NCBI RefSeq assembly: GCF_004323635.1
Contig: NZ_CP036515.1
Location: 310,001-374,000 of the forward strand
Source: Lichenihabitans psoromatis
Lineage (GTDB): Bacteria; Pseudomonadota; Alphaproteobacteria; Rhizobiales; Beijerinckiaceae
DNA length: 64,000 bases
Direction: 5' to 3'
Part shown: piece by piece, positions 1 to 45,786 of the stretch
Position numbering within the stretch: the first letter of the stretch is position 1
How the letters are laid out: every line of letters starts with the position of its first letter
Notes under the pieces: model-generated
Told to the model about the DNA's origin: nothing
The model's database searches: none
What the model saw: the letters and a program-made list of their open reading frames with translations, nothing else
Made by a program: the position numbers and the translations under genes

Positions 1-663
1 ATGCCCGACGTCATCGCCTCTGATGTTGAAGGTCCAGGCCATTGCATGCGGATCGCTGACCAAGAGCGCAGCGGCGTCTTTCATCGCGCCACGAATGTCG
101 GCGAACTTGCCCGAGACGTCCCGTCCGGCCAACGCATCGCGATACAGCGCGATCTGACCGAAACGCGGCGCGGGGCGATCCGCCCAGACGGCATCGATCG
201 GATTACGGTCCAACGCCACGAGGGTCGCACCGGCTCCCGTCACCGCCTTGTCGAGCCGCTCGACCTGAGCCGGCGTGTGGAGCCATGGATCGTAGCCGAG
301 CCGGTCCCCTTTTTTGAGATGGGTCGACAGCCATGTCTCCGGCGGGTTGTCGATCAGCGACTGCGGCGCCAACACCGTTCCATCGACCTGATCGACGACC
401 TGGATCGTGTAGCGTCCGTCGACGAAGATCGCGGCACTATCGCGCAACACGATCGCGGTCCCGGCCGAGCCGGTAAACCCGGTGAGCCACGCCAGACGCT
501 CGGCGCAAGCGGGTACATATTCGTTCTGATGTTCGTCGGCGCGCGGCACGATAAAGCCGTCGACGCCATGGCGCGCCAAGGCGGCGCGGAGCAAGGCAAC
601 GCGCGGGCCGCCTTGTGTCGGATCGGCGGTTTCGTCAAAGGATTGGAACTGAGCTTTGGACAT
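1..663 (-). CDS. Aminopeptidase P family protein (Xaa-Pro aminopeptidase), N-terminal part
   Basis: The complement encodes 221 codons running off the left edge, beginning MSKAQFQSFDETADPTQGG. The stretch VDGFIVPRADEHQNEYVP, then ERLAWLTGFTGSAGTAIVL and FVDGRYTIQV, is the typical N-terminal creatinase-like domain of M24B Xaa-Pro aminopeptidases. It continues with WLSTHLKKGDRLGYDPWLHT and AMAWTFNIRG, where the second domain starts. The metal-binding catalytic domain lies outside the window. The enzyme would remove N-terminal residues preceding proline in the cytoplasm. The start ATG at 663 is divergent from the VOC gene, 60 bp away. The frame is open to the edge with no stop. The family call is firm from the creatinase-type N-terminus. 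Confidence 0.85.
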   Translation of the reverse strand, partial: MSKAQFQSFDETADPTQGGPRVALLRAALARHGVDGFIVPRADEHQNEYVPACAERLAWLTGFTGSAGTAIVLRDSAAIFVDGRYTIQVVDQVDGTVLAPQSLIDNPPETWLSTHLKKGDRLGYDPWLHTPAQVERLDKAVTGAGATLVALDRNPIDAVWADRPAPRFGQIALYRDALAGRDVSGKFADIRGAMKDAAALLVSDPHAMAWTFNIRGDDVGH

Positions 664-723
664 GCGGTCAGATTAGTGCAGGTCCAGCCCAAGCGAAACG
701 CCAATCGGCGGAAGGCCGTCACG

Positions 724-1104
724 ATGCTCAACGCAATCCACCACGTTGCCCTGATCGCCTCCGACTATGAACGATCCAAGCGATTTTACAGCGAGACCCT
801 GGGACTGCCGATCATCCGCGAGGTGTGGCGGGAGGCGCGCCGCTCGTGGAAATGCGATCTCCAGGTCGGCTCGTCACAGATCGAGTTATTCTCGTTTCCA
901 GAAGCCCCGCCCCGGCCCTCATGGCCGGAAGCCTGCGGGCTGCGGCACCTCGCTTTTGAGGTTGACCGGCTCGACCCGATCATTCAGCGGCTCGACGATG
1001 CCGGCGTCACCGTCGAACCGGTTCGGATCGACGAGCACACGGGTCGGCGTTTCACCTTCTTCGCCGACCCGGATGGGCTGCCGCTCGAACTCTACGAACG
1101 GTGA
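724..1104 (+). CDS. VOC (glyoxalase/bleomycin-resistance fold) family protein
   Basis: A 126-residue protein with a single vicinal-oxygen-chelate fold: it opens with AIHHVALIASDYERSKRFY, has the mid-domain strand SSQIELFSF, and ends in the typical FTFFADPDGLPLELYE. The histidine near residue 5 and the glutamate of the last strand are in the usual metal-ligand positions. It most resembles the SMU508/YaeR-type glyoxalase-like group. True substrates of that group are mostly unknown, so lactoylglutathione lyase activity should not be assumed. The start ATG follows a GGAAGG ribosome site. It is divergent from the aminopeptidase P gene and convergent with the monooxygenase gene downstream. Confidence 0.85.
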   Translation: MLNAIHHVALIASDYERSKRFYSETLGLPIIREVWREARRSWKCDLQVGSSQIELFSFPEAPPRPSWPEACGLRHLAFEVDRLDPIIQRLDDAGVTVEPVRIDEHTGRRFTFFADPDGLPLELYER

Positions 1105-1135
1105 GCCTTGGGCCCGGTCCCCGGTCGTTTCAGGA

Positions 1136-1444
1136 TCAGCCCGGAAGCTTGTCGGCGAGGATTTCCATCTTGTGGATCTGCGGCGGTTCGGCGAAGAGAT
1201 CACCGGCCGCAGCCTTTTCCATCAAAGCGGCAGCGACTTTGCCATTGAGATGAGCGTCGCGACCGGCTTCATCGTCGAACGTGTCGAAGATCGCGAAGGA
1301 GGACGGACCCTCCTTAATGGCGAACCAGGATCGGGTGCCGGGCTCCGCATTGACCAAAGGAAGAGCGGAGCGGAGAAATTCCGCGACTTCGTCTTCCTTC
1401 CCGGGCTTGGCTTTCAGCGGAACATAAAGTGCAAATTTGGTCAT
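1136..1444 (-). CDS. Antibiotic biosynthesis monooxygenase (ABM) domain protein
   Basis: A 102-residue single-domain protein starting MTKFALYVPLKAKPGKEDEV. The dimeric alpha/beta-barrel ABM family (YgiN/quinol monooxygenase-like) usually has this length and the pattern of an opening beta strand, a KPGKE..V.EFL helix and a central G..SWFAIK.....SFAIFDTF segment. Members are cofactor-free oxygenases or quinol-handling proteins, and the substrate here cannot be read from sequence. I chose ATG 1444 because GGAGG lies just upstream. An in-frame TTG at 1459 would put the start inside that ribosome site. The gene is convergent with the VOC gene. Confidence 0.8.
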   Translation of the reverse strand: MTKFALYVPLKAKPGKEDEVAEFLRSALPLVNAEPGTRSWFAIKEGPSSFAIFDTFDDEAGRDAHLNGKVAAALMEKAAAGDLFAEPPQIHKMEILADKLPG

Positions 1445-1521
1445 GGCGTTGTCCTCCAAGAGACACGATGAGCATAGGGCGGTGACACGCGATTGAAAGG
1501 CGCCCCGGTCCGAGCAGCGTC

Positions 1522-1550
1522 TTGACGCTTGCGCCGCAACCCCGTATAGA
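1522..1550 (+). promoter_or_regulatory. Sigma70-type promoter for rpmB
   Basis: TTGACG (1522-1527) and TATAGA (1545-1550) are separated by exactly 17 bp, close to the vegetative consensus. The promoter points at rpmB, whose start codon lies about 135 bp downstream, leaving a sizeable 5' leader. No other gene in this orientation lies between. Inferred from sequence alone. Confidence 0.6.
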
Positions 1551-1686
1551 CCCGCCTTCTGGGACGTGGCGGGCTCGTGCTCGCGACATCCCTATTCACT
1601 CGATTTTCGTGGCTGATAGGTCCCGGGTCACCGGTCCTTCGCATTTTTTTGCCGGCCGCAAACAACTGTCCCGAAGGATGAAGTCC

Positions 1687-2004
1687 ATGGCCCGCCGTTG
1701 TGAACTGACCGGCAAAGCCGTCCAAAGCGGCAATCTCGTCAGCCACTCCAATCACAAGACGCGCACCCGGTTCCTCCCGAACCTGTGCAATGTCACGCTC
1801 ATCTCGGAAGCTCTCGAGCGTTCGGTTCGCCTCCGTGTCGCGGCAGCTTCGCTGCGGAGCGTCGAGCATCGGGGCGGCCTCGATGCCTTTCTGATCAAGG
1901 CGGATGACAGCGATCTGTCGCAAAACGCCCGTGTGTTGAAGCGCGAAATCAAGAAGCGGACCGCCGCTTCCGCAGCGACCGCGTCGGCATCCGAAGCCGC
2001 TTGA
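1687..2004 (+). CDS. rpmB: 50S ribosomal protein L28
   Basis: A 105-residue basic protein beginning [20 protein letters not shown], the signature start of bacterial L28, followed by [13 protein letters not shown] and [24 protein letters not shown]. It has the C-terminal extension common in alphaproteobacteria and ends in an alanine-rich tail. It is part of the large ribosomal subunit. The start ATG follows GAAGGATG and matches the conserved N-terminus, although the frame is open further upstream. It has its own promoter about 135 bp upstream and a strong terminator 18 bp after its stop. Confidence 0.97.
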
Positions 2005-2021
2005 TCTAAAGCGTCTCAAAT

Positions 2022-2051
2022 AAAACGGCCGGACTTGCGTCCGGCCGTTTT
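2022..2051. terminator. Bidirectional intrinsic terminator between rpmB and a small exported protein gene
   Basis: A perfect 13-bp inverted repeat, AAAACGGCCGGAC and GTCCGGCCGTTTT, surrounds a TTGC loop. The A-tract on one flank and T-tract on the other give a U-tailed hairpin in both directions. It sits 18 bp after the rpmB stop and 18 bp after the stop of the opposing gene at 2069, so it probably ends both transcripts. Confidence 0.85.
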
Positions 2052-2068
2052 GCGTTGTTTCCGGTGCC

Positions 2069-2308
2069 TTACATGCTCTGGCTATTCGGCGCTTGTTGCT
2101 GCTGACGCTGCTGATCCTGCATCCGCTGCTGGTTGGCACGATGGCGACCATAGGCGCAACCCGCCGCTGCACCGAGAAAGCCGTGATGGCCGGCGTAATG
2201 CCCCGCGATGCCGCCGACAATCGCGCCTTTAATGCATCCCTTGGCCTGAGCCTCGGTCGCCACGAAGGCCGAGCCCATCATGGCCACGACCGCAATCCAT
2301 TTCATCAT
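2069..2308 (-). CDS. Small exported cysteine/glycine-zipper protein, copy 1
   Basis: A 79-residue protein with signal peptide MMKWIAVVAMMGSAFVATEAQA and a core KGCIKGAIVGGIAGHYAGHHG then GAAAGCAYGRHRAN. The spaced glycines resemble a glycine-zipper membrane segment, flanked by two cysteines. The tail is a low-complexity glutamine-rich stretch (QRQQQQ). A clear paralogue with the same core lies at 40997-41203. Function is unknown; a small envelope-associated protein is the best inference. The start has ATGATG after AGGGGGAA. The terminator at 2022-2051 follows it. The FGGY kinase gene lies 75 bp upstream on the same strand. Confidence 0.75.
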   Translation of the reverse strand: MMKWIAVVAMMGSAFVATEAQAKGCIKGAIVGGIAGHYAGHHGFLGAAAGCAYGRHRANQQRMQDQQRQQQQAPNSQSM

Positions 2309-2383
2309 GACATTCCCCCTGGTTATGTCTGGCTGGACAACGCGCGAGCGGCTCGAAATATCCGGCCAAGGCGCAGCTTGGAT

Positions 2384-3892
2384 TTAAGCGTCCCGCATGT
2401 CGGATAAGGCGGCCATGAGGTCCTTCGTCTGCTGGTAGAGGGCCTTGTAGATCGGGAAGCGCCGATCATAGATCCTCTGCGTGCTTTCATCCGGCTGTTC
2501 GACCCGCACAGTTGCGTTCCATCGTTCGATGTCGCCCAGCACCGCATAGCCCGTGGCGACAGCGGCCAGGAACGCATCCCCGAGGCTCGCGCCCGTCGTC
2601 ACCTCACGAAGAATTTGGGCATGGCCGCTCGCATCGGACACCGCCTTCAACCACACCGCATTGTTGGTGCCGCCCCCGACCGCGATGACGCGCTCCGGCG
2701 GCTGGCCGACGTCGGCATAGGTCTCGGTGATGTGACGGACCGCAAATCCGATTCCCTCGATCATGGCGCGATAGACATCCGCTCGCGTATGGGTGAGATC
2801 GAGGCCGAAAATGCAGCCCTTTGCCTTGGTGTCGTGGATGGGCGTTCGCTCACCGGAGAAATATGGCAGGACGACCAGCCCCTTCGCCCCGGGCGGGGAC
2901 GTCGCGCCCTCCCGCGCCATAGTTTGCATCACCTCGGCGGGATCGATCTCACGGGCGAACTGGTCGGCAAACCACCGGGTCAGGGTGCCGCTCGTTGCCA
3001 ACCCGGCCTGGCTCGCCTCGAGCCCTTCAAACAACCAGGGCGCGTACCACAGACGCGAGTCGCGCACCGGCTTGGCCGTCACCAAAATAACAAAGATGGT
3101 CGAGCCATACATCAGCATCATGTCGCCGGGGCCGGTGACCCCGACGCTCACGGCTTCGGCTGCCGCATCGATGGTGCCACACAGAACCGGCGTCCCCACC
3201 GCGAGGCCGGTTTCGCGTGCGGCCTGCTCGGTGACCGTACCGGCGATGTCGCTGCTCCAGATCAGGCGTGGCAGGTAAGCGAGGTCGACGATGCCGTCGG
3301 CGAAGTCCGAGCTCCAGGCATTTGCGGCGGCATCATAGAGCGGCGTGAACCCCGCCGCCGTAAAATGGTCCATCACATAGTCGCCGGTCAGGCGATACGT
3401 GATGTAGGGCGTCGCGCTGAGAAACATCCGGGCCCTGGCGTAAAGATCCGGCCGCTTGTTCTTCAGCCACAGGATCTTCGGGCCGACAGACTGGCTCGTC
3501 AGCGCGTTGCCGCAGCGAGCCAGCAGGGTGTCGCGTCCGATCGCCGTGGTGAGCTGTTCGATCTCGTCGGCCGCGCGAGTATCGACGCCGTAGAGCACGC
3601 CGTTGCACAAGGGCTGTCCCGCCTCGTCGAGCGGCAGCATGCACGGCCCGATGGCGCTTGCGGCCACCGCCTTGACGTCCGAAGGATCGACGCCGCTCTC
3701 GGCCAGCAGCTTGCGCGCGATGACGGTGAAATCCCCCCACCAATCCTCTTCGGCCCGATGTTCGGCCCAGCCCGGCTGCGGCACGATCATCTTGTGTGGC
3801 TGCATGGCGCGCGCGACGATGCGGCCATCCGCCGTGGTGAGGACGCCTTTCGACTCGAACGTGCCGATGTCGACACCCATGAAATAAACCAT
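2384..3892 (-). CDS. FGGY-family carbohydrate kinase
   Basis: A 502-residue protein of normal FGGY length. The N-terminal ASKHA phosphate-binding motif reads MGVDIGTFESKGVL. It is followed by the substrate-region segment GWAEHRAEEDWW and by GVDTRAADEIEQL. The C-terminal half carries the ATP-binding AVGGGTNNAVWLK and the ASLGDAFLAAVATG helix. The family phosphorylates sugars such as xylulose, ribulose or glycerol with ATP in the cytoplasm. The substrate cannot be set, and no sugar transporter or isomerase is nearby to hint at one. I use ATG 3892 (ribosome site GGAGG, starting MVYFMGVD) rather than an in-frame start at 3979, because FGGY proteins begin right before this motif. Confidence 0.88.
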   Translation of the reverse strand: MVYFMGVDIGTFESKGVLTTADGRIVARAMQPHKMIVPQPGWAEHRAEEDWWGDFTVIARKLLAESGVDPSDVKAVAASAIGPCMLPLDEAGQPLCNGVLYGVDTRAADEIEQLTTAIGRDTLLARCGNALTSQSVGPKILWLKNKRPDLYARARMFLSATPYITYRLTGDYVMDHFTAAGFTPLYDAAANAWSSDFADGIVDLAYLPRLIWSSDIAGTVTEQAARETGLAVGTPVLCGTIDAAAEAVSVGVTGPGDMMLMYGSTIFVILVTAKPVRDSRLWYAPWLFEGLEASQAGLATSGTLTRWFADQFAREIDPAEVMQTMAREGATSPPGAKGLVVLPYFSGERTPIHDTKAKGCIFGLDLTHTRADVYRAMIEGIGFAVRHITETYADVGQPPERVIAVGGGTNNAVWLKAVSDASGHAQILREVTTGASLGDAFLAAVATGYAVLGDIERWNATVRVEQPDESTQRIYDRRFPIYKALYQQTKDLMAALSDMRDA

Positions 3893-32741: not shown

Positions 32742-32805
32742 CCCCGTGTCGCTTATCGCGGTAGAGAACACGGGAGAATGAATGCGATTTGGGGAGGATG
32801 AGCGC

Positions 32806-34311
32806 ATGGCGGATGAAGAGGTTCGGGTCCCCCCGGAACCGCGCCCGTTCGGCCAGGCGATGCCCAACCGCGGGAAGCCGCGTGATGCGGCCGTGATCGA
32901 GGGAACGGCCGAAGAACTCTTGCCGGCCGACGTGCGGGCCACCGACATCGCGGCGAACGATATCAAGGCCGAGCAGGATGAGACGCTCCATCGCGTCGAA
33001 TCCGCCGCCCCGACTGACGACATGCTGCGCGATGCCGGCGAACCCCCGACAGAACCCGCTCGCTCCGGCGCGTTCGGCTCGGTTCCGCCGACCGGCACAG
33101 CTTCCGGCACCGAGCGGGTGTCGACGTCACCCATGGTAGAGCCCGCGACACCGCGCCGCTCCCGCATGCCGCTCTTGCTATCGCTCCTCGGCCTTATGTT
33201 GATTCTGATGCTCGGGGCGTTGCTGTACCGTCTCTACGATCCAGCGCCCGACGACAGCGTCGCAGCTTTGACGACAGAAATGAGTGGTTTGAAGCAGCGT
33301 ATCGCGGCGCTCGAGGCCCGTCCGACTGCCGTGTCGGCCGCGCCGAACTTGGCGCCGCTGCAGGACCGCCTCAGCGCGATCGAGGGGACGGTCGCGCAGC
33401 TGAAGACCGATCTGGCCGACACGCAATCCGCACGCGACGCGTCGAAGACTGCCGCGCCGGCCGAAACAGCCGCCAATGCGGCCCCCTCAGTCGATCTCGG
33501 CCCAATTCAATCAAAGCTGGCCGACCTTGGCCAGTCCATCACGGCCCTCCAAGGCACCGTTGCGGCGCTGCCCAAGGTCGATCTCGGGCCGATCGACGCG
33601 AAAGTGGCCGATCTTGGCCAGACCGTGGCGTCGCTGCAAGGCGCAGTCGCGGCCCTGCCGCATGTCGATCTCGCGCCGCTAAGCCGCGACATCGCGGCCC
33701 TCAATCAACGCGTGACGCCGCTCGAAACGGCGCTGTCGGCGCCGAAGTCGGACGCGCGAGCGACCGAAGCGCGGCAGGAGGGGAGCGCGGCCGAAACGCG
33801 CGCAGCTCCCATCGCGGTGACGGCCCAGGTGATTGAAGGCGCGTTGCATGACGGCCGGTCGTTCATGCCGGAAGTGACGGCTTTGAAAGCGCTTGGGGTT
33901 TCCGAGAGCAATCTCGCGCCTTTGACGGCCGTGGCCGATAAGGGTGCCGCGACCGACGCGATGCTGATCACCCTGTTCGGGCAGGTTCGCGACAAGATGC
34001 TGGGCGCGGGCGCACCGAAGCCGACCGGCAATGTGCTCGACCGGATGTTGGCCAGCGCGCAAGGCTTGGTCAAGGTTCGCCCAGCCGGAGAGACGGCCGG
34101 GAACGATCCCGATGCGGTCGTGTCCCGCATCGACGCCGATCTCAACCGGGCCGACCTGAACGGGGCACTGGGCGAATGGCAGAAACTGCCGGACGATGGC
34201 AAGGCTGCATCGCAGTCCTGGGCGGATCGATTGAAGGCTCGGGTCGACGCGCAGGACGCCGCCCGCGCGATCGTGGCGGGTGCGGTCACGGCGTTCGGAT
34301 CGACGAAATGA
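32806..34311 (+). CDS. Mic60/mitofilin-like inner-membrane protein
   Basis: A 501-residue protein. A cytoplasmic, disordered N-terminal 125 residues leads to one membrane helix (MPLLLSLLGLMLILMLGALL), then a periplasmic coiled coil and a helical C-terminus. The last 90 residues, with DADLNRADLNGALGEWQKL and WADRLKARVDA, look like the C-terminal signature of alphaproteobacterial Mic60 homologues, which sit next to hemY and help shape membranes. A near-perfect 29-residue repeat (VDLGPI..ADLGQ..) occurs 2.6 times in the coiled coil. ATG 32806 has GGGGAGG eight bases upstream; ATG 32782 (GGGAGA upstream) is possible. Confidence 0.75.
   Translation: MADEEVRVPPEPRPFGQAMPNRGKPRDAAVIEGTAEELLPADVRATDIAANDIKAEQDETLHRVESAAPTDDMLRDAGEPPTEPARSGAFGSVPPTGTASGTERVSTSPMVEPATPRRSRMPLLLSLLGLMLILMLGALLYRLYDPAPDDSVAALTTEMSGLKQRIAALEARPTAVSAAPNLAPLQDRLSAIEGTVAQLKTDLADTQSARDASKTAAPAETAANAAPSVDLGPIQSKLADLGQSITALQGTVAALPKVDLGPIDAKVADLGQTVASLQGAVAALPHVDLAPLSRDIAALNQRVTPLETALSAPKSDARATEARQEGSAAETRAAPIAVTAQVIEGALHDGRSFMPEVTALKALGVSESNLAPLTAVADKGAATDAMLITLFGQVRDKMLGAGAPKPTGNVLDRMLASAQGLVKVRPAGETAGNDPDAVVSRIDADLNRADLNGALGEWQKLPDDGKAASQSWADRLKARVDAQDAARAIVAGAVTAFGSTK
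33490..33714 (+). repeat. 87-bp tandem repeat inside the Mic60-like gene
   Basis: Units begin at 33490, 33577 and 33664, each encoding VDLGPI- or VDLAPL-type starts. The first two encode 29 residues each and the third about 17. The codons differ in many synonymous and some replacement positions, so the expansion is old. It lengthens the periplasmic coiled coil in heptad-compatible steps (28 to 29 residues). Confidence 0.8.
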
Positions 34312-43260: not shown

Positions 43261-44232
43261 TTATTTGATTTCTGCGTCTTTGAACACGCGATCCTGGTCG
43301 ACAACATGGCGAAGCGACGAACCGCCTGAGGTTTCGGTTACGGCGGGGGTGCGTGGACGCGCGATCCAGATCCCGAGAACGATGAAGGCGCCCCCAATCG
43401 CCTGCACGCTGGTCACCGCTTCACCGAGCACCGCCCAGGCGAACAGGGCCGCCACAATGGCTTCGAGAAAAATCACCAACGACGAAAAAACCGGAGGCAA
43501 TTGCCCGAGCGCGATCGACAGCAAGCCTTGACCACCCGCATGGCTGATCCAGGCGATCGCCAACAGGGCCGCCCAGCCGCTTGCGTGTTTGGGGAGGAAA
43601 TCATGGTCGAGAACCAGCGCCGCGACGAACAGGATCGCGACCGCGATGAGACTGAGTTCAAACGTGACGCGTGCGGCGCTCGACGTGCGGCGGGCCGCAC
43701 CGACCGCAAGAAAGTATAGGCCGAACAGCACGCCGGTAATGACGCCATAGGCATCACCCTGCAGACGCGACAGATCGACCTGCATGCTCTGGATCACGAG
43801 CGCGGCGCCCCCGACGAGGCAGAGACCCAGCCCAATCATGACCGCCGAGGTCACGCGTTGACGGAACAACAGCCAACCGAAGACGACGACCCAGACCGGG
43901 GCCGCCGTCGCGAAGAATGTCGCATTGGCGATCGTCGTATGGGCGATGGAGAGGTGCCAAAAGAAGAGATCGGCGCCGAAGATGACGCCGGCCAGGACCG
44001 TGGCGCGCGGAAAGGACACGGGTTTGGATGTCCCGACCGGTCGGTTGCGCTCGGACAGCGTCATCCAGGTCCAGAGCAGCGGCATCGCGAGGCCGATGCG
44101 CCAGAACGCGCTGGTGAATGGCCCGACCTCCGCCAGCCTCACGAAGATCGGCGAAATGCCCATCGCAAGCGCTCCAAGCAGCAAGGCCGCGACGGGCGCG
44201 GCACGACCGGAACGCATCGATACGGAACGCAT
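43261..44232 (-). CDS. DMT-family (EamA) transporter
   Basis: A 323-residue inner-membrane protein with ten hydrophobic helices in two EamA repeats, starting ALLLGALAMGISPIFVRLAEVGPF and with the second repeat from GVITGVLFGLYFLAVGAARR. The drug/metabolite superfamily exports amino acids, nucleotides or drugs; the substrate is not known. I chose ATG 44232 (AAGG upstream). Its upstream boundary meets the 179-bp duplication at 44256, so the promoter of this gene lies beside or within the duplicated region. Confidence 0.88.
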   Translation of the reverse strand: MRSVSMRSGRAAPVAALLLGALAMGISPIFVRLAEVGPFTSAFWRIGLAMPLLWTWMTLSERNRPVGTSKPVSFPRATVLAGVIFGADLFFWHLSIAHTTIANATFFATAAPVWVVVFGWLLFRQRVTSAVMIGLGLCLVGGAALVIQSMQVDLSRLQGDAYGVITGVLFGLYFLAVGAARRTSSAARVTFELSLIAVAILFVAALVLDHDFLPKHASGWAALLAIAWISHAGGQGLLSIALGQLPPVFSSLVIFLEAIVAALFAWAVLGEAVTSVQAIGGAFIVLGIWIARPRTPAVTETSGGSSLRHVVDQDRVFKDAEIK

Positions 44233-44255
44233 GAACGGCCTTGCGGGCAAAGGGA

Positions 44256-44434
44256 CGATGGCGGGAGAACGACGCGGCGGCGAGAGGTCTCTATGGCAGA
44301 TTGGCGAGGGCGTGACTATTGTGAGCTGGTCCCATTCCGCCGTGGCAGAGATCAGACGTCGGTCACAACAAGGTGTTTCGATTGATGCGTCATGCCTACC
44401 CCGACGTTCCGGTCGTTGCGATCGACGGCCGTCT
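44256..44434. repeat. 179-bp direct tandem duplication, first copy
   Basis: Identical base for base to 44435-44613. It starts with CGATGGCGG, and the same nonamer follows the second copy at 44614-44622, so a 9-bp microhomology flanks the duplicated block. It contains part of the DMT/amidohydrolase intergenic region plus the ribosome site and first codons of the amidohydrolase gene. Confidence 0.92.
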
Positions 44435-44564
44435 CGATGGCGGGAGAACGACGCGGCGGCGAGAGGTCTCTATGGCAGATTGGCGAGGGCGTGACTATTG
44501 TGAGCTGGTCCCATTCCGCCGTGGCAGAGATCAGACGTCGGTCACAACAAGGTGTTTCGATTGA
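44373..44564 (+). pseudogene. Duplicated 5' fragment of the amidohydrolase gene
   Basis: Within the first repeat copy, GTG 44373 or ATG 44385 opens the same frame as the true gene (MFRLMRHAYPDVPVVAIDGR) for about 21 codons. It then runs out of homology into repeated intergenic sequence, and its frame ends at a TGA at 44562-44564, overlapping the start codons of the intact gene. It may still be translated as a small leader peptide, since its ribosome site is intact. Confidence 0.75.
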
Positions 44565-44613
44565 TGCGTCATGCCTACCCCGACGTTCCGGTCGTTGCGA
44601 TCGACGGCCGTCT
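44435..44613. repeat. 179-bp direct tandem duplication, second copy
   Basis: Identical to 44256-44434 with a period of exactly 179 bp. This copy joins without a break to the intact amidohydrolase gene. The absence of any difference between copies implies a very recent event or an assembly artefact. Confidence 0.92.
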
Positions 44614-45430
44614 CGATGGCGGTCTGCTGTTGCTCTGCGACCATGCGTCCAACGCGCTGCCGACCCGCTACGGCGATCTGGGATTGCCCGCCGGCGAGTT
44701 CGAGCGGCACATCGCCTATGATATCGGGGCCGCGGACGCGACGCGCCGCATGGCCGAGTTGCTCGACGCGCCGGCCCTGCTCGCCACCTATTCGCGGCTG
44801 CTGATCGACCCCAATCGCGGGGCCGAGGATCCCACGCTCGTCATGCGCTTGTCGGACGGTGCGATCGTGCCGGGCAATGCACGGATCGACGCGGCCGAAA
44901 TCGAGCATCGCCGCCGCACCTATTGGCAACCCTACCGCGACCAGATCGATCAGACGCTCGACCGCATGATGGCGACCGGCATCGTTCCGGCGATCGTATC
45001 GATGCACTCCTTCACCCCGAGCCTGAAGGGGCACGTCCGCCCCTGGCACATCGGGCTGCTGTGGGATGCCGATCCCCGCTTGACCAAGCCCCTGCTCGAC
45101 GCGCTGGCTCATGAGCCGGATCTGCAACCCGCGTCCGACCGGGTCGGCGACAACGAGCCTTACGACGGGGCCCTGCCCGGCGACACGATCGACACTCATG
45201 CGACCCGACGCGGTCTCGCCAATGTGTTGATCGAGGTGCGGCAGGATCTCATCGCGACGCCGCAGACCGCCGCCACCTGGGGCGAACGACTGGCGCGCCT
45301 TCTCGGCCCGATCCTGGCCAAGGCGCCTCTTCATGTCGTGTCCCACCATCCGAGCCGGGCCGGTCAACCGCCTCGGCCCGTCCCGCATGCCGATCTGCCC
45401 CGCCCGCGCCTAGAGGAGACCTTGCCATGA
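44564..45430 (+). CDS. N-formylglutamate amidohydrolase family protein
   Basis: A 288-residue zinc amidohydrolase of the HutG-like family. Signature blocks are LLLLCDHASNALPTRYGDLGLP, HIAYDIGAADATRRMAELL, ATYSRLLIDPNR, VSMHSFTPSL and ANVLIEVRQDLI, with the zinc ligands expected among the H and D residues of CDHAS and SMHSF. It releases formate from N-formylglutamate, or acts on a related N-acyl substrate. No other histidine-degradation genes are here, so that role is uncertain. Start candidates are GTG 44552, TTG 44561 (AAGG eight bases upstream) and ATG 44564. The stop overlaps the DUF1244 start (ATGA). Confidence 0.9.
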   Translation: MRHAYPDVPVVAIDGRLDGGLLLLCDHASNALPTRYGDLGLPAGEFERHIAYDIGAADATRRMAELLDAPALLATYSRLLIDPNRGAEDPTLVMRLSDGAIVPGNARIDAAEIEHRRRTYWQPYRDQIDQTLDRMMATGIVPAIVSMHSFTPSLKGHVRPWHIGLLWDADPRLTKPLLDALAHEPDLQPASDRVGDNEPYDGALPGDTIDTHATRRGLANVLIEVRQDLIATPQTAATWGERLARLLGPILAKAPLHVVSHHPSRAGQPPRPVPHADLPRPRLEETLP

Positions 45431-45786
45431 CGATGGATGATACGACCCGCACCGAACTCGAAGCCGCCGCTTTCCGCCGCCTTACCGCCCTGCTGCGCCG
45501 GAGCGACGTTCAGAACATCGACCTCATGACCCTCGCAGGGTTCTGTCGCAACTGCCTGTCGAATTGGATCGAGGATGCGGCACGTGAGCGGGGACTGTCG
45601 GTCAGCAAGGCCGAGGCGCGGGAACATGTCTACGGCATGCCCTACGAGCAATGGAAGACGTTGCATCAGACGGACGCGACGCCCGAGCAAGCGACACGCT
45701 TCGCACAGGCGGCCCATACGCCCGACATCCCACGGCCGCATAGCCCCGACGCGGTCGATCCCGCGTCCCGGAAAGCGGATTGCTGA
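45427..45786 (+). CDS. DUF1244 domain protein
   Basis: A 119-residue helical protein with the DUF1244 core AFRRLTALLRRSDVQNIDLMTL then AGFCRNCLSNWIEDAARERG and VYGMPYEQWKTLHQ. The CxxC pair (FCRNCL) is invariant in the family and could bind metal. Function unknown. The 4-bp overlap with the amidohydrolase gene, conserved in many relatives, points to a shared pathway. The proline-rich tail of about 35 residues is specific to this protein. It is convergent with the NAD synthetase gene. Confidence 0.92.
   Translation: MTMDDTTRTELEAAAFRRLTALLRRSDVQNIDLMTLAGFCRNCLSNWIEDAARERGLSVSKAEAREHVYGMPYEQWKTLHQTDATPEQATRFAQAAHTPDIPRPHSPDAVDPASRKADC

Follow-up and report, generated by a model that had tools for sequence, protein, structure and literature searches.

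We identified a perfect tandem duplication of 179 bp in a stretch of 64,000 nucleotides from Lichenihabitans psoromatis (the window), consisting of two head-to-tail units on the + strand (copy 1, 44256-44434; copy 2, 44435-44613) that are 100% identical. We consider it very probable that the divergent control region between an EamA-family transporter gene and an amidohydrolase-DUF1244 gene pair was duplicated in tandem once, in this lineage only, via a 9-bp microhomology and with a probably neutral or modest effect. The exact match at offset 179 spans 188 nt because the nonamer CGATGGCGG is repeated after copy 2, precisely the arrangement described in an earlier sequence-only reading of this DNA, in which the nonamer opens each block and follows the second. 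Two identical head-to-tail units bounded by a short repeat, as in short-repeat tandem duplication, thus occupy 44256-44613, and Tandem Repeats Finder reports a period of 179, 2.1 copies and a match of 100%. The only other array found by this program in the window is an imperfect 87-bp tandem (33513-33678, 78% match), located inside a 509-aa frame (32782-34311).

The duplicated unit covers the divergent control region together with the upstream region and the 5' end of the gene for N-formylglutamate amidohydrolase (44564-45430, + strand; 288 aa, or 292 from GTG 44552; PF05013, E 1.5e-45), which copy 2 adjoins and enters and which is intact. The protein-database entry for this amidohydrolase (P0001) has 288 aa and starts at ATG 44564. 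The stop of the gene overlaps the start of a DUF1244 gene (45427-45786, + strand; PF06844, E 2.2e-35); both genes are whole, and their identities and overlap agree with the sequence-only reading. That the unit carries the 5' end of the amidohydrolase gene also stands, the share being 20 residues from ATG 44564 with the trailing nonamer counted rather than the 21 codons given before. The region upstream of the divergent EamA-family gene (43261-44250, - strand, from TTG 44250 with ATG 44232 also possible; PF00892, E 6.2e-26), which had not been considered, likewise lies within the unit. In the sequence, both divergent genes retain their adjacent upstream DNA and the amidohydrolase gene retains its native start.

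To judge the rarity of such a structure, exact self-matches of at least 18 nt at offsets of 4-3000 were collected from 864,000 bases, i.e. the window plus 800 kb and including 5,000 N, corresponding to about 18% of the assembly (4,836,481 bases), so that similar events are possible in the remainder. Seven matches were found in these 864 kb, the longest being the 188 nt of the duplication, followed by 40 nt (offset 51) and 22 nt (offset 21). Only three of the seven runs are at least as long as their period (179, 21 and 18), and apart from the 179-bp duplication no exact tandem in the sampled DNA has a period exceeding 21 bp. It is real in the given sequence and far beyond chance. A near-exact 51-bp tandem of two copies (96% match) lies at G000 C1 3557072-3557173.

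The nonamer CGATGGCGG is present on the + strand at the left end of the array (44256-44264), at the duplication joint (44435-44443) and at the right end (44614-44622), as well as at two more sites in the window. The right nonamer lies inside native LDGG codons, and CGACGGCGG is found at its position in two of the five genus relatives (L130 and L133). The left nonamer lies in DNA which an alignment with the five genus relatives shows to be variable and intergenic; its exact sequence is absent from the regions of eight relatives aligned or scanned, whose intergenic DNA has diverged. A short direct repeat bounds the ancestral interval at both ends. In a 300-kb sample, exact runs of at least 9 nt at offset 179 cover 3.3e-5 of positions (one run), so that chance would rarely place a 9-nt repeat at the junction if the repeat had played no part in the event.

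Slippage at an ordinary replication fork and exchange between sister chromosomes are both routes by which duplications form. The present sequence and the relatives support a model according to which the ancestral one-copy locus carried CGATGGCGG twice at a distance of 179 bp, once in intergenic and once in coding DNA, and slipped-strand mispairing at replication or sister-chromosome exchange at this 9-bp microhomology copied the interval once. Duplication between the left and the right nonamer would yield exactly the present structure. The discussion of PMC4432121 names two proposed RecA-independent routes, homology-free end joining and rolling-circle strand slippage, the latter requiring short stretches of identity, and gives 25-40 nt as the length needed for RecA-dependent recombination. 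The 9-nt junction fits the slippage route.

We compared the locus with 85 relative loci, comprising the best 80 of 523 loci confirmed in genome_contigs and one locus from each of five same-genus genomes, the genus search having returned six genomes including this one. L003 and L004 repeat L085 and L087, leaving 83 distinct loci, some of which are truncated by contig ends. The top named relatives are Lichenifustis flavocetrariae and Lichenibacterium minor, and the closest amidohydrolase homologue besides the window's own protein, among 120 listed, is 80% identical. A DUF1244 match on the same strand is present in 65 of these 85 loci, in 64 of them within 400 bp downstream, and 38 of the 85 have a divergent EamA match upstream. 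Since this arrangement recurs, the duplicated unit spans a divergent control region common to many relatives. A DNA search of the duplicated stretch against 40 relatives returned as sole match 33 bases at 88% in one of them; the region being too diverged for DNA matching, we used protein-anchored spacing instead.

Measured between EamA residue 30 and amidohydrolase residue 31, the spacing is 479 bp in the window and 300 bp after subtraction of one unit, compared to 267-357 bp in 34 of the 36 distinct relatives in which a divergent EamA gene is present (35 of 38 rows). The exceptions are L071 with 423 bp and L087 (= L004) with 478 bp, and spacing alone is accordingly not decisive. Exact direct repeats in the L087 region reach at most 10 nt and the extra DNA faces gaps in the genus alignment (as L132), so that its length has another cause. 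A scan for direct repeats from -500 to +300 at offsets of 10-499, in which two regions had less than 500 bp upstream, revealed that none of the 85 loci (83 distinct) has at its 5' end an exact tandem comparable to that of the window; the scan is restricted to exact repeats, and strongly diverged duplications would escape it. The longest exact direct repeat in these loci is a 33-nt run with period 20 in L016, all others having at most 14 nt. From the spacing in 34 of 36 distinct loci together with the repeat scan, both in relatives of other species, one copy looks ancestral.

The duplication creates a chimeric frame of 63 codons (44373-44564, + strand) running from GTG 44373 to a TGA at 44562-44564 that overlaps ATG 44564 of the intact amidohydrolase gene. 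The 63-residue chimera noted earlier is thus present from GTG 44373 but comprises 59 codons from ATG 44385 when the database start is applied. It has no Pfam family, and its protein search gave one candidate sharing words and none at E <= 0.001, which is weak evidence, short frames often being uncalled. The stop-start overlap had been regarded as a product of the duplication. However, each unit already holds a 30-codon upstream frame of doubtful coding status that starts at the ATG of a CTATGG and ends in TGATG (copy 1, 44293-44385; copy 2, 44472-44564, both + strand), the TGA of the latter overlapping ATG 44564, and the chimeric frame runs into the 30-codon frame of copy 2. The overlap is therefore native to the unit. 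The motif AGAGG precedes the 30-codon frame in both positions.

This 30-codon frame may be a leader frame or what is left of an N-terminal extension that has decayed. Read from the corresponding CTATGG ATG, the frames of L084 and L085 continue into the amidohydrolase with 305 and 304 codons, respectively, favouring a longer protein in these two; those of L086 and L087 are also long but belong to a different frame, and that of L088 has 17 codons compared to 30 in the window. We considered CTATGG as carrying a start codon, but the frames from its ATG are inconsistent across L084-L088 and the window, and we prefer to interpret it as a putative promoter element, an assignment that is unproven.

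The hexamer, a candidate -10 element kept in relatives, lies at 44291-44296 in copy 1 and at 44470-44475 in copy 2 (+ strand), the latter 82 nt before GTG 44552. CTATGG occurs no farther than 150 nt ahead of the gene in all five genus relatives, where shuffles predict 0.12, and in 14 of 78 other relatives (L003 and L004 dropped), where 1.38 are expected; in the genus relatives it is placed 48-62 nt before the aligned position, whereas the 82 nt in the window are farther. A sigma-70 scan of 43800-45000 gave no promoter site, and a terminator scan of the same interval gave a single terminator-like site (43990-43971, minus strand) compared to 0.8 in shuffles. The unit also holds AAGG as a possible ribosome site and the start, so that, with the candidate CTATGG promoter in each unit, two promoters in series are probable. 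The added copy would most likely supply another promoter farther upstream, as well as a short peptide that is out of frame and ends at the real start. The predicted mean unpaired fraction of the start region is 0.34-0.35 for short and 0.32-0.33 for long transcripts (three assumed starts each). As these values are nearly equal and the TGATG overlap is native, we expect an effect that is probably neutral or a modest expression change from the extra promoter. A leader change, as suggested in the sequence-only reading, is disfavoured for the same reason, the intact gene keeping its native start region with nearly the same predicted pairing.

The absence of differences between the units had also been read as pointing to a very recent event, to one reversible by recombination or to an assembly error. 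Recombination can keep repeat copies identical, and zero differences in 179 positions bound the divergence only to below about 1.7% (95%, our own arithmetic), so that identity alone does not prove a very recent event. The two-unit repeat should tend to collapse back to one copy. For gene duplications, the discussion of PMC4432121 cites a loss of typically 0.01-0.15 per cell and generation, those duplications being much larger; instability of the 179-bp repeat is plausible.

An assembly or consensus error, with one unit only in the cell, would account for the perfect identity and the presence of only two copies, and agrees with this being the only repeat of such length in 864 kb and not being common to relatives. 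We regard such an error as unlikely. The window lies inside a contig of 4,645,778 bp in a three-contig assembly, as would be expected of a closed long-read chromosome, which lowers the chance that short reads were wrongly collapsed or joined here, and the 367-bp structure is short relative to long reads. The position of the junction exactly at a 9-nt repeat with a native coding copy further speaks against an error, yet assemblers may join at short overlaps.

A selected, reversible copy-number switch, in which duplication of promoter or leader tunes the amidohydrolase/DUF1244 operon, could draw on the candidate promoter, ribosome site and start within the unit, on frames permitting stop-start coupling and on 188 bp of identity, which exceed the length required for RecA-dependent recombination according to the discussion of PMC4432121. 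We judge this very unlikely, since the recurrent repeat of a phase-variable switch is lacking here, none of the 85 relative loci having a comparable exact tandem, only two copies are present and the predicted start-site pairing is nearly unchanged. The fuller proposal of a reversible regulatory change, in which a second promoter and a coupled chimeric leader ending in TGATG would, through recombination between one and two units, raise or re-tune amidohydrolase/DUF1244 expression, appears highly improbable. Usual target-site duplications are far shorter than 179 bp, and a mobile-element remnant or target-site duplication, for which the direct repeats flanking the interval might be cited, is extremely improbable as the unit is native, containing both the 5' end that belongs to the gene itself and the upstream hexamer that relatives also have, and as it has no second place in its own genome in the DNA search, no match in the plasmid collection and no Rfam match in 43900-45000 at E <= 1.

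Phase-variable repeats are mostly multi-copy arrays of short units varying in populations. The tandem repeats at phase-variable promoters or leaders resemble the present duplication in being recombination-prone and placed by a start site, whereas the window has two long units. The closest likeness is to RecA-independent duplication between short direct repeats, with which it shares the exact head-to-tail copy, the short-repeat bounds and the occurrence in one lineage, no difference being found in the features tested. As covered in the discussion of PMC4432121, the patAB duplication of Streptococcus pneumoniae M184 is likewise a two-copy tandem altering a gene's upstream DNA; it spans 9.2 kb, has no end repeats, is proposed to stem from end joining and creates a new promoter strongly raising expression, in contrast to the 179 bp, the 9-nt repeat and the native upstream sequence kept in the window. 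The same discussion mentions an 18-bp duplication of the ermA ribosome site, likewise small and located where translation starts, which is reported to cause resistance, whereas the unit described here is ten times longer and known from sequence alone. A title-level literature search, which makes no claim of absence from print, found no paper title on this locus.

As a summary, the 179-bp duplication is an ordinary kind of mutation, and it would gain greater importance only if a change in expression or flipping within populations were shown. It is of value as a caution that a stop-start overlap seemingly made by a duplication can be native to the duplicated unit, and as one clear instance of a tandem duplication bounded by microhomology in which a control region is copied and neither divergent gene is broken.
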